From a virus, in IMG/VR virus record IMGVR_UViG_3300042563_001835, positions 1 to 32,925 of that record: a DNA stretch of 32,925 nt, one strand, 5' to 3'. This document shows positions 27,085 to 32,925 of this stretch, piece by piece. Each line of letters starts with the position of its first letter. Position 1 is the first letter of the stretch. A program made the translations under genes and the position numbers. The notes beneath the pieces are model-generated. The model was given only the letters and a program-made list of their open reading frames with translations. It was not told where the DNA came from and ran no database searches.

Positions 27085-28557
27085 TTAATCTTGAACTAAA
27101 CGTACAGAGAAACCAGAATTTTTACCATAATTAAAATCTCTGTAAATATTACTAGCATTATATGCTATGTAACGAATCCATGCTTTTGTAGTATCAAGTG
27201 GATATTCTGTTGAAGTCCAAAAGAAACCATAGTTATTTTTATTTTGAAATGCACCACTAATATTACAACCACCACCTGGAAGTGCTGTAAAACCACTAGT
27301 ATTTGTAGCACCTGTATTCGGGCTTGTCCAATGTGTAATACCTGTTTCTTTCATTGCTCCTCCTGCAACAGTATCACCTCCTAATGAATTTGTATAACAA
27401 GTAAATTCTTGATCACTTGGAACATGATAACCTATTGGTGCAAATCCACGAGGATCATTTATAGCATACCAATTGTACATTTTTCCATAAATAAGTCCAT
27501 TTGCAGAGTCAAAGTTATAATAACACCAAGCACCTGTGGTTAAAGCTGCCCAAGCAATTGCATTGGTAACTTCTGGTATTGTAGTTCCATCTCTATATGT
27601 AGTACCACTATAATTAGTAGTAGTAAAAATTATTGGAAGACATGTAGTAGTAGTAGTTGTTGTTGGTATATTATTACTAGTAGTAGTAGTTGTTGTTGGT
27701 GCAACTGTGGTTGTACTTGTTGTTGAACTAGAACTACTGCTAGTTGTAGTAGTTGTTGGTGTAGCTGTAGTGGTGGTTGTGGTAGTAGGTACAGCTGTTG
27801 TTGTTGTACTAGTTGTAGAACTACTTGTACTACTTGTAGTGGTAGTGGTTGGTTCAACTGTGGTGGTGGTTGTTGTAGTAGAAGGAGAACAAATTACTGA
27901 CACACAATCATCTTGTATTGTTTCTATATTTATATTAAATTCAGATGGAAGAGTTGTTGTACCTATAAACTCTAATATTTCAAAAACAAGTCCAGTATAG
28001 TCATCATAATAAAATTTACCAACAGTAAGAGGACCAGAATTTCTTCTTAAATAACCACCTAATGGTTCACAAGTTATACATGACAACTGTGCAATTCTAT
28101 AAATATAATTAACTACTGTAGTAGTAGTTGTAGTAGTAGGTTCTAATGTTGTACTTGTAGATGTTGTACTAGTTGAACTAGTAGAACTAGTAGATGTTGT
28201 AGAACTAGTTATTGGTCTTATAGGATTTGGTACAATAGTAATATCACAAGGAACCTCTATACAAGGTTCTGGAGTGTTACATCTACTAACACATCCTACA
28301 GTAATGCGTATAACTCTGCTAGCTATCATAGCTACAGAGTATTCATGTACATAATCAGGATTACAATACTTATGAGTTAGTATTCTTCTATATGTTATCA
28401 ATTGAAGAATTTCACCAGCAGGTATAGGTTTGTTCAACATATATGAAATATTGTTGTACAAGTTGTTACCAAGTTCTGCTAACTTACAATCTATTTTTCT
28501 AAGTAAAGATGGAATGTTAGCACATTCTGGGCAATTCGTTAGTCTTGGTGATAACAT
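27085..28557 (-). CDS. Modular adhesin with Thr/Ser linkers and C-terminal FISUMP domain (490 aa)
   Basis: Residues 1-115 form a Cys-containing anchor-like region (NCPECANIPSLLRKIDCKL, YNNISYMLNKPI). It is followed by a Thr/Ser linker, a small domain (residues ~149-222, YIYRIAQLSC, GPLTVGKFYYDDYTG) and long Thr/Ser linkers. Residues ~305-490 match the 'Fibrobacter succinogenes major paralogous domain': IYGKMYNWYAINDPRGFAP, GYHVPSDQE, FTALPGG, FWTSTEY, and the ending NSGFSVRLVQD. FISUMP domains belong to the C-type-lectin-like/formylglycine-enzyme fold group, often surface ligand-binding modules. A receptor-binding adhesin is therefore likely. It lies 10 bases after the small Cys-rich gene. 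Confidence 0.78.
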   Translation of the reverse strand: MLSPRLTNCPECANIPSLLRKIDCKLAELGNNLYNNISYMLNKPIPAGEILQLITYRRILTHKYCNPDYVHEYSVAMIASRVIRITVGCVSRCNTPEPCIEVPCDITIVPNPIRPITSSTTSTSSTSSTSTTSTSTTLEPTTTTTTTVVNYIYRIAQLSCITCEPLGGYLRRNSGPLTVGKFYYDDYTGLVFEILEFIGTTTLPSEFNINIETIQDDCVSVICSPSTTTTTTTVEPTTTTTSSTSSSTTSTTTTAVPTTTTTTTATPTTTTTSSSSSSTTSTTTVAPTTTTTTSNNIPTTTTTTTCLPIIFTTTNYSGTTYRDGTTIPEVTNAIAWAALTTGAWCYYNFDSANGLIYGKMYNWYAINDPRGFAPIGYHVPSDQEFTCYTNSLGGDTVAGGAMKETGITHWTSPNTGATNTSGFTALPGGGCNISGAFQNKNNYGFFWTSTEYPLDTTKAWIRYIAYNASNIYRDFNYGKNSGFSVRLVQD

Positions 28558-31364: not shown

Positions 31365-32336
31365 CTAAATAGCAGCTAGTTTTTTAGTTTTCAATTTACC
31401 TTCTAATGTCAATAACTCATCTTGGTTATCATCATCTGCAAGGAATCTAATTAAATCTTCCTCATCTTTAGCTATTTCATATTCACCTTCATAAACCTTA
31501 CCGTTTGGTTTGATTCTATATACTGAATGTGCTACAGCTTGTTTTACTAAATCTTTTATATGGAGCAAGGCTTCTTTCATATCTGCAAATCTATTGAACA
31601 CTTCAACTGGACTCAATCCTGAATATTTACCATTCTTGAATTCTGTTTGTTTCAATACATTATCTACTAAGTTATAAACCACTTCTTCTTTTGTTTCTTC
31701 TGTTACTGGAAGACCTAAAAGTCTTGCAACTTTTTTCTTCTTCTCAGGAGACATAGAATCAAACTTAACAATAGCTTTATTAATCAATTGTTTTTTCTTG
31801 TAGATTACCGCATTTTCAATTTCATCATCTACAATATAAAATTGTGTATCTGCTGGAAATTCACCTCTTTCCCATGCTTGATAACTAGAAGCAATAGTTG
31901 GATGTACTCTCAACCATGAAAAGGCTATTTCTTGAAAAACATTTGATAGATCAAAATAGTTATCACCATCTAATAGTTTAACTACTTGAACGTGTGTTTG
32001 ATCATCTGTAGAAGTTGATAAACCATAGTTCCAAAATTGTGAACGAGGTCCTAAATCAATATCTCCTATTTCATTCTCAAGTCTTGTTTTAAGAGCTCTC
32101 ACTCTTTCAATCTCTAATTCTTGTTCTAAAGGATCTTGGATTCTTTTAATGTACGTAGCATTTTCATCTAATCCTGTTCTGTACTTTCCATCTAATTCTT
32201 TATAAGGATACTTGAATACTCCTGTTCCAGGGATTCTTGTCATTCCTTTTTGTGATAGTCCACTATCCATTGTTTGAAGTTGAGCACTATTTGAATAGTC
32301 TCTCTTAATAGTAGAAATCTTGCCTGTCTTTGCCAT
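31365..32336 (-). CDS. Conserved capsid-region protein, function unknown (323 aa)
   Basis: A charged, mostly helical protein starting MAKTGKISTIKRDYSNSAQL. It has an Arg/Glu-rich helix (EQELEIERVRALKTRLENEI, ~90-110), an aromatic block (LGPRSQFWNYGLS) and a Lys-rich stretch (SMSPEKKKKVARLLGLP, ~195-212). The C-terminal region is acidic then Lys-rich (DDDNQDELLTLEGKLKTKKL). I recall homologues next to the capsid gene in crAss-like phages but no assigned role. It follows the tRNA and is the first gene of the next unit. Confidence 0.6.
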   Translation of the reverse strand: MAKTGKISTIKRDYSNSAQLQTMDSGLSQKGMTRIPGTGVFKYPYKELDGKYRTGLDENATYIKRIQDPLEQELEIERVRALKTRLENEIGDIDLGPRSQFWNYGLSTSTDDQTHVQVVKLLDGDNYFDLSNVFQEIAFSWLRVHPTIASSYQAWERGEFPADTQFYIVDDEIENAVIYKKKQLINKAIVKFDSMSPEKKKKVARLLGLPVTEETKEEVVYNLVDNVLKQTEFKNGKYSGLSPVEVFNRFADMKEALLHIKDLVKQAVAHSVYRIKPNGKVYEGEYEIAKDEEDLIRFLADDDNQDELLTLEGKLKTKKLAAI

Positions 32337-32369
32337 ATGTAGTTAAATTTAATAATTGGTTTTAATTTG

Positions 32370-32443
32370 TTGCGTGGGTTGGACTCGAACCAACGACCTC
32401 AAGGTTATGAGCCTTGCGAGCTACCAACTGCTACTACCACACG
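32370..32443 (-). tRNA. tRNA-Met (CAU), initiator-like
   Basis: Minus-strand cloverleaf. The acceptor 5' strand CGTGTGG pairs with CCACGCA except for a C1-A72 mismatch. The D loop AGTTGGTA is flanked by AGC/GCT, giving A11-U24. The anticodon stem CAAGG/CCTTG holds loop CTCATAA (anticodon CAU, 32407-32409), and the T arm GTTGG-TTCGAGT-CCAAC is perfect. C1xA72 and A11-U24 are bacterial initiator hallmarks. The third, three G-C pairs in the anticodon stem, is only two of three. One extra base lies between acceptor and D stem, and 10-25 is T-C. CCA is not encoded. Confidence 0.85.
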
Positions 32444-32450
32444 ATTTAGT

Positions 32451-32504
32451 AGAGTGGTTCCACCGAAGGAACCTGAACATGGATACTATCCATTTCAACA
32501 CTCT
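32451..32504 (-). ncRNA. Three-stem folded RNA segment just upstream of the tRNA
   Basis: On the minus strand an outer stem AGAGT/ACTCT encloses two hairpins. One is TGAA+ATGGAT with ATCCAT+TTCA (one bulged G, triloop AGT). The other is GGTTCC/GGAACC around TTCGGT. All pair exactly. It does not fit a tRNA or any ribozyme I know. It may be a tRNA-processing or 3' UTR element of the capsid transcript. Confidence 0.4.
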
Positions 32505-32515
32505 GTTTGAGAAGC

Positions 32516-32548
32516 TTCCCCTCGGGGAGGGAGAGGAGGTGAGGGGAA
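32516..32548. repeat. GC-rich inverted repeat with G tracts
   Basis: TTCCCCTC (32516-32523) and GAGGGGAA (32541-32548) form a perfect 8-bp stem. The enclosed plus strand is purine-rich with several G runs. It is far richer in GC than its surroundings and resembles C/G-rich intergenic repeats common in Bacteroidota chromosomes, so it may be of host origin. Confidence 0.5.
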
Positions 32549-32557
32549 CCATCTCGG

Positions 32558-32601
32558 AAAAAAGAGATGTATGCTGTTCTATTATGGGAAGCAATACATC
32601 T
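32558..32601 (-). terminator. Intrinsic terminator after the capsid gene
   Basis: On the minus strand AGATGTAT(T)GC (32601-32591) pairs with GCATACATCT (32574-32565), 10 bp with one bulged T. It is followed by C and six T (32563-32558). It lies 13 bases after the stop of the probable capsid gene. Confidence 0.75.
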
Positions 32602-32613
32602 ACATTTTCGTTA

Positions 32614-32925
32614 TTAAAATTGTGGGATTTCCTCAATCAACACAGTTCTAGACAAATCTTCAATAAATACATCACATCTGTCTTTCATCCAGATTTCGTA
32701 TCCTGGGAATTTGTTAGCAGAGCTCATACCTTGAGATTTAGCAAAACCTAAGTGGTGACGAGTACCATCAATATAACCCCATGTCATAGAAGGAGCACCT
32801 TTCATACGTACTTCTCTAATGTTGTTTACCATAGATCCATCAGACATTGGAGAAACATCAAACACCATAAATACTGGAGTAGATTTTTTGTTTTGTCCAA
32901 ACTCTAAGTTAGTTTGTGGTAAATC
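32614..32925 (-). CDS. Probable major capsid protein, C-terminal 103 residues (start beyond window)
   Basis: The frame is open to the right edge (DLPQTNLEFGQNKKSTPVFM, then the piece from MVFDVSPMSDGS) and ends LSRTVLIEEIPQF. The segment VNNIREVRMKGAPSMTWGYI, then the closing PGYEIWMKDRCDVFIEDL, is beta-rich like the end of an HK97-fold capsid protein. It sits upstream of a terminator, the tRNA and the neck genes, which fits the capsid position in crAss-like genomes. The diagnostic N-terminal and central parts are outside the window, so identity is probable only. Confidence 0.55.
   Translation of the reverse strand, partial: DLPQTNLEFGQNKKSTPVFMVFDVSPMSDGSMVNNIREVRMKGAPSMTWGYIDGTRHHLGFAKSQGMSSANKFPGYEIWMKDRCDVFIEDLSRTVLIEEIPQF

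Follow-up and report, generated by a model that had tools for sequence, protein, structure and literature searches.

The window, which is the whole stretch of 32,925 bases analysed here and a linear virus record, comes from a crAss-like phage and holds one tRNA gene whose sequence supports reading it as an initiator. It appears to be a variant initiator and not a canonical one, since the rule of three G-C pairs in the anticodon stem fails at A29-U41. Such a relaxed stem seems to be general among viral initiators, with pair 30-40 nearly fixed and its neighbours free. We believe the tRNA is probably a working, relaxed variant of bacterial tRNA-fMet, carried to keep up the supply of initiator when the host's own is scarce late in infection. 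More tentatively, and with slightly less than even confidence, we propose that viral initiators are under a looser rule than those of cells: they would keep only G30-C40 together with a 1-72 pair that is weak or missing, and 29-41 and 31-39 would be free as long as they pair.

The window and its tRNA gene

The initial annotation was correct to call this DNA phage. The profiles crAss_MUZ (117 bits), CrAss_Ring_1 (36.5 bits) and CrAss_Ring_2 (61.5 bits) all match in the window above their Pfam cut-offs. The 19 main genes checked all lie on the minus strand, and a Shine-Dalgarno-like motif precedes 0 of the 19, which bears out the earlier description of a region without such sites. The features around the tRNA are these:

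32614-32925, minus strand: 3' end of the major capsid protein gene, 103 codons inside the window
32369-32443, minus strand: tRNA(CAU), read as initiator-type from ARAGORN, Rfam, residue parsing and the HMM isotype test
31365-32336, minus strand: next structural or head gene, 323 amino acids, starting 32 nt past the tRNA; PHROG 16383, function unassigned

The capsid gene end matches the Pfam family Crass_capsid with E 7e-4 and 18.5 bits, below the cut-off of 27, and the part of the protein inside the window is 41% identical to a Leptolyngbya phage protein. That cyanobacterial phage (PP438436.1 106614-111847, L488) is the nearest cultured relative by capsid, with Cellulophaga phages next; the muzzle protein is 29% identical to that of Cellulophaga phage phi4:1, a distant relative of the window phage. 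Since the nearest cultured relative infects a cyanobacterium, the window's group may have a host outside the Bacteroidota. The AT-rich leaders without Shine-Dalgarno sites would presumably suit a Bacteroidota host. A Fib_succ_major domain lies at the C-terminus of a protein of the late structural region (window 27085-28557, minus strand).

A gap of 277 bases separates the 3' end of the capsid gene from the start of the 323-residue gene, and the tRNA lies inside it. ARAGORN finds a single tRNA in the window, tRNA-Met(CAU), at 32369-32443 on the minus strand, and the Rfam tRNA model RF00005 matches with 41.4 bits (gathering score 29, E 1.2e-5). Two methods agree, and the gene is real. The annotation had put it at 32370-32443; the tRNA is there, one base longer at 32369, and on the minus strand, which had been left out.

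The acceptor stem is CGTGTGG/CCACGCA, with a C1xA72 mismatch, G2-C71, U3.G70 and the remaining positions paired. The D arm reads TA-G-U-AGC...GCU-C and has A11-U24 with an extra U between G10 and A11. The anticodon stem is CAAGG/CCTTG around the loop CTCATAA, so two of the three G-C pairs are present (G30-C40 and G31-C39) and 29-41 is A-U. The 3' end is A73 followed by CAA, and CCA is not encoded. The first reading of this sequence had named C1xA72, A11-U24, the CAU anticodon, an extra base before the D stem and the two remaining G-C pairs, and it was right in each particular. Pair 2-71 is the G-C expected as an aid to formylation, and 3-70 is U.G where C3-G70 is expected. The extra U recurs in 4 of the 17 distinct tRNAs of the clade described below (L003, the window type, and L008, L028 and L040), and two other phages, Sinorhizobium phage phiM12 and Rhodobacter phage RcXuper, have it in their tRNA-Met, so it is unlikely to be a sequencing slip.

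Relatives of the locus

We searched IMG/VR for relatives with a pattern for the 323-residue gene (at least 596 confirmed of at least 598 matches) and for the next gene downstream (at least 595). Eighty loci were kept per gene search, which with two further loci makes 162; 129 of these hold both gene ends and give 96 distinct gaps among the matches listed. Of these 96 gaps, 33 hold a CAU tRNA, with 17 distinct sequences among them, and 63 have none. We sort the 33 into five classes of our own labelling (I 22, II 5, III 4, IV 1 and V 1, among the matches listed). Six class representatives are 68-84% identical pairwise, and all classes are read as initiator-type and sit at one spot.

A tree of the downstream gene requires at least 12 changes between presence and absence of the tRNA (shuffled labels give a mean of 27 and a lowest value of 21) and 15 changes of class; this is a midpoint-rooted tree of a single gene, and recombination can inflate such counts. 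A search for a donor with the pattern CGTGTGGTAGNAGCAGTTGGTNAGCT gave 0 exact matches in genome contigs and no bacterial source; the pattern requires one base between GGT and AGCT and so covers most clade types, the window's own D loop excepted.

RNA elements of the gap and of related phages

The rest of the gap is filled by structured RNA elements:

32558-32601, minus strand: hairpin A1, AGATGTAT...ATACATCT, then CTTTTTT, a terminator-like element after the capsid gene
32507-32557, minus strand: C-rich hairpin B, CCGAGATGGTTCCCCTC...GAGGGGAAGCTTCTCAA, from sequence comparison
32451-32504, minus strand: three-way-junction RNA of 54 bases, P1 AGAGTG/CACTCT and two hairpins, 7 nt upstream of the tRNA

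The gap at the capsid 3' end (window 32507-32601, minus strand; loci L002-L081 and L237-L316) is a chain of optional hairpin modules that changes between close relatives. The order is A1/A2, B, F, D, C, E and then the three-way junction, and in gaps where our module patterns succeed the tRNA invariably comes after the junction. Our terminator scan of the window did not call hairpin A1. In distant relatives the stem of hairpin B still pairs, as judged by eye, though with different letters. Its loop holds CACCTCCT, which we take to resemble the 3' end of 16S rRNA. We rejected the idea that it mimics an anti-Shine-Dalgarno sequence: distant relatives keep the stem and lose the loop.

We collected 70 distinct copies of the junction by demanding complementary ends, a criterion that biases them towards the closing stem; a three-way junction is the fold of 65, as against 30 of 1400 shuffles. 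A covariance model, R1, built on 8 copies scores 43.9 bits in the window. When given 42 loci, the junction model located a single copy in every one, as it did in all 14 long records searched. In a further set of 36 sources it had no hit in L292 or the Leptolyngbya phage and a weak one in L282. In an alignment of 41 distinct rows 92.6% of cells pair, and 15 of the 19 pairs have changed on both sides. The alignment had been fitted to the model; its covariation score is 0.527, whereas slid structures never exceed 0.094, and the score is reached by 0 of 500 shuffles. Plain MAFFT and RNAalifold on 30 copies recover one hairpin only, because P1 and P2 are misaligned, a problem that the covariance model solves. 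At E<=1, Rfam has no match to the junction in the window (the tRNA is its only match there) or in 8 relatives. The junction is a strongly covarying, previously undescribed element, absent from Rfam and with no assigned function. Relatives have it whether or not they carry the tRNA, so its occurrence does not depend on the tRNA.

Each of the 12 gaps longer than 450 nt contains a short ORF in which a Cys/His pattern resembling HNH can be seen by eye. A Pfam search of two of these ORFs gave no HNH match, so the name is not established; their placement suggests a mobile element at the same site.

HNH-like ORF gaps: L023, L041, L066, L077, L081, L246, L274, L279, L282, L287, L293, L312

Other RNAs were seen in these phages. 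A tmRNA is encoded in 8 of 10 long records, its tag peptide ending in ELEMAA or VGLAA. Several records have near it a tRNA-like gene of 69-144 nt whose acceptor, D and T arms are normal and whose anticodon arm is abnormal or missing and very variable in length. Relatives of the window phage also hold group I introns.

tmRNA: L093 1730-2119; L095 1112-1500; L096 1150-1482; L097 1023-1427
tRNA-like gene: L092 1501-1569; L093 1500-1569; L095 1501-1645; L096 1501-1612; others
Group I introns: L092 2079-2302; L094 2133-2357

Initiator identity

The state of the 1-72 pair across the five classes is stronger evidence for an initiator than the one sequence by itself. Position 1-72 is unpaired in all 17 distinct clade tRNAs among the matches listed, as CxA in 10, GxA in 3, UxU in 2 and AxA in 2, and all 17 also have CAU, A73 and G30-C40. 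Cellular initiators are unpaired there in 93 of 93 cases (CxA, CxU, UxU, AxA or CxC), and elongator-type CAU tRNAs of cells are paired in 21 of 22, the remaining UxU looking like an offset in the ARAGORN start; all these readings depend on the end calls of ARAGORN or our parser. That the letters change and the mismatch persists is difficult to account for unless selection acts on initiator identity. The window tRNA has neither of the features we looked for as marks of elongator tRNA-Met or tRNA-Ile2, a 1-72 pair and Y11-R24; it has CxA and A11-U24.

Profile HMMs point the same way. The window tRNA scores 58.3 bits as an initiator, 35.6 against all elongators, 22.0 against the CTCATAA type and 35.2 against the TTCATA type. 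All 17 clade tRNAs score better as initiators, and the 22 cellular elongators do the reverse (22 of 22), with controls that are not independent: the initiator models were trained on 93 cellular sequences of which 10 were rescored, and the 22 elongators were rescored on the model that holds them. The margin is wide for class I, the window type, and narrow for class II (28.8 against 24.5 bits). This is the comparison with elongator Met and Ile2 that the annotation had proposed, made with profile HMMs in place of the isotype models of tRNAscan-SE. Its proposal of a phage-encoded, modified tRNA of initiator type is supported by these scores together with the 1x72 non-pair across five tRNA classes.

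Classes II and III have U11-A24, but they have three full G-C pairs and the 1x72 mismatch. These two elements turn an elongator into an initiator when transplanted (PMC7949028, PMC11231383). Reasoning by hand, we rejected an elongator reading of these classes: shifting the acceptor by one base gives G1-C72 but displaces U8, A14 and G10.

The anticodon stem in viruses and in cells

The stem of the window is not an isolated case. At 29-31/39-41 the 17 clade tRNAs have AGG/CCT in 6, GGG/CCC in 5, GGA/TCC in 2 and TGG/CCA, AGA/TCT, AGC/GCT and AGT/ACT in one each, with G30-C40 constant, among the matches listed. To learn whether this is special to the clade, we ran a wider scan of IMG/VR in which the pattern held the initiator body constant and let the anticodon stem vary; it gave at least 120 loci and 102 distinct tRNAs sampled in an unknown order. 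Among the matches listed these hold 17 stem types: AGG/CCT is commonest (28), followed by GGG/CCC (27), and others make up 47. Position 29-41 is A-U in 49, G-C in 41 and U-A in 12, with none unpaired; 30-40 is G-C in 99 of the 102; 31-39 is G-C in 65 and unpaired in 3. Five of the 102 were parsed with more than two mismatches in the acceptor stem. Removing the window's clade leaves GGG/CCC in 27 of 97, and thinning to sequences less than 85% alike leaves it in 8 of 32, again among the viral matches listed.

Bacteria differ. GGG/CCC is found in 152 of the 170 genomes with an initiator-type match: in 39 of 39 for the Bacteroidota (198 searched), in 72 of 74 for the Bacillota (149 searched), where AGG/CCT occurs in 1 of 74, and in 41 of 57 for the Pseudomonadota (150 searched), where AGG/CCT accounts for the other 16 of 57. 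We take these phylum names from titled loci and from the taxonomy of the organisms named there. The genomes without GGG/CCC, over all 170, have AGG/CCT in 17 and AGG/TCT in 1. A Fisher test of GGG/CCC in viruses (27 of 102, among the matches listed) against cells (152 of 170) gives p = 8e-27, a value that is too small since the sequences are related. All these patterns fix the initiator D arm and AGGTCG, so that viral and cellular counts alike miss more divergent initiators, and the D-loop gap allowed in the Pseudomonadota and Bacillota pattern could be one base wider than that of the viral and Bacteroidota patterns. We left a first cellular set out of the stem comparison because its pattern fixed 29, 30, 40 and 41; the other counts were made by eye.

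Named phages give a similar picture. A similarity search with the window's gap gave 105 records, and in the 14 of them that we read, a set that is therefore not random, the initiator-like tRNA has a stem other than GGG/CCC in 11. AGG/CCT is found in Cellulophaga phage phi4:1_13 and in cr60_1, GodonK, CBB, GAP32, XbC2 and Myrna; phiM12 has TGC/GCA, RcXuper TGG/CCA, and nt-1 and phi-Grn1 AGT/GCT. Donnerlittchen, QDWS359 and Lak-B1 keep GGG/CCC.

If viral initiators do follow a looser rule, then the three G-C pairs of cells would serve something besides starting translation, such as fidelity, ribosome maturation or not being cut, and phages could dispense with that further role or would have to avoid it. 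In any case the 17 stem types of phages amount to a natural mutagenesis of the three-G-C element, with the role of each pair directly testable using natural sequences. Phage initiators also qualify the published remark that phages generally avoid encoding tRNA-fMet, which was made for VapC-LT2 and Shigella flexneri (PMC10264068). Our literature search, which covered few subscription papers, found no paper that describes phage initiators with a relaxed three-G-C stem.

What the tRNA may do

We picture the supply of initiator as follows. The tRNA would be transcribed with the late capsid region and cut from that transcript. The host would add CCA, charge it with methionine and formylate it, as the 1x72 mismatch, G2-C71, A11-U24, A73 and CAU suggest, and the phage tRNA would then start translation at AUG. 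It would do this with an anticodon stem short of the full three G-C pairs; the middle pair, G30-C40, is present, as it is in nearly all viral initiators of our comparison (among the matches listed). It would top up or replace host tRNA-fMet when that is scarce late in infection, and the scarcity would most plausibly come from tRNA-cutting defences, which is the weakest step.

Since some bacteria carry the same stem in their initiator-type tRNA, real if perhaps reduced activity is the natural expectation. According to an overview of jumbo phages, phage tRNAs stand in for host tRNAs that have been cleaved (PMC7824862); this, the cutting by VapC and the tmRNA of the clade fit a role in supply and rescue without proving it. 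Several things count against a working initiator. The minimum-energy fold of the tRNA by itself is not a cloverleaf. A review gives both G29:C41 and G30:C40 as required for efficient synthesis in E. coli (PMC11231383), and the window tRNA lacks the first. It has U3.G70 where E. coli has C-G, an aid to formylation (PMC7949028). Finally, 63 of 96 relatives, among the matches listed, manage without the tRNA. The same count, set beside the absence of Shine-Dalgarno sites throughout the window (0 of 19), lends no support to the annotation's further suggestion that the initiator is supplied because the late operon lacks such sites.

The alternative we take most seriously, possible in our view if somewhat doubtful, is that a change in the stem hides the tRNA from VapC-type host toxins, which cut tRNA-fMet, while the loop and CAU stay fixed. 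VapC toxins cut between A38 and C39, at the border of loop and stem (PMC4105405), and it has been hypothesized that phage tRNAs evade such enzymes by loop changes, in a paper that also has phages generally avoiding tRNA-fMet where VapC-LT2 targets it (PMC10264068). In our data the loop is constant and the stem varies: 31-39 is not G-C in 37 and 29-41 is not G-C in 61 of the 102 viral tRNAs among the matches listed. The tmRNA in 8 of 10 long records of the clade, a rescue RNA for stalled ribosomes, is also consistent with this. However, the window tRNA retains C39, which lies at the cleavage site, and so do 65 of the 102 (among the matches listed). Escape through the stem would be a testable route.

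We think it unlikely that this is a methionine tRNA of dual use, in which relaxing the stem, together in other phages with weak pairing at 1-72, would let one tRNA serve both the start and internal AUG codons. Such a role would suit the 33 of 102 viral tRNAs read as paired at 1-72, mostly by weak pairs, and the loss of three G-C pairs is commoner when 1-72 is paired (28 of 33 against 47 of 69 by hand sum), both among the matches listed. But all 17 tRNAs of the window's clade, among the matches listed, keep the non-pair, which according to a review excludes a tRNA from the A site (PMC11231383), and phage phi4:1 has a separate elongator tRNA-Met beside its initiator-type one.

The tRNA stands alone between the capsid and the next gene within a chain of structured RNA modules, so it might be mere punctuation, a signal for maturation enzymes to cut the capsid transcript with decoding incidental. 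Any tRNA would serve for that, yet the tRNA-bearing regions have CAU in 33 of 33 and the distinct tRNAs initiator hallmarks in 17 of 17 (among the matches listed), and the 63 of 96 relatives with no tRNA there, among the matches listed, get by without the signal. We find this quite improbable.

It is very hard to credit that the tRNA shuts off the host, as a formylated but poorly initiating molecule that jams initiation factor 2 and ribosome maturation like the "3GC mutant" of E. coli. That mutant, UA/CG/AU, does not initiate, yet it is charged, formylated and bound by IF2 and causes a defect in ribosome biogenesis (PMC10486304). However, G30-C40, which is flipped in the toxic mutant, is kept in 99 of 102 viral stems among the matches listed, and the window's stem type is natural in the initiator-type tRNA of cells. 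Least credible of all is a captured, drifting passenger with no function, which would suit the way the tRNA has come and gone (at least 12 switches between presence and absence on the tree) but not the pairing of most stem positions and the unpaired 1x72 across diverged sequences, with 0 unpaired at 29-41 and 3 at 31-39 in the 102 viral tRNAs among the matches listed.

Comparison with known systems

Bacterial tRNA-fMet is the model that the window tRNA resembles most in score, with the best HMM match, and the two share CAU, the 1x72 non-pair, G2-C71, A11-U24, A73, G30-C40 and G31-C39. They differ in that the window tRNA has A29-U41 instead of G29-C41, U3.G70 and an extra D-stem U, lacks an encoded CCA and lies in a phage late region. 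In the Pseudomonadota, 16 of 57 matching genomes have an initiator-type tRNA with the same letters at 29-31/39-41, AGG/CCT, but these tRNAs are cellular and differ in the D loop and outer stem pairs. The tRNA-Met of Sinorhizobium phage phiM12 shares the extra D-stem U and a relaxed anticodon stem, in its case TGC/GCA, but it has a U1-A72 pair and an encoded CCA. The initiator-type tRNA of Cellulophaga phage phi4:1 shares the 1x72 non-pair (as A1xC72), A11-U24 and AGG/CCT; it sits in a cluster of many tRNAs, whereas that of the window stands alone beside the capsid gene.
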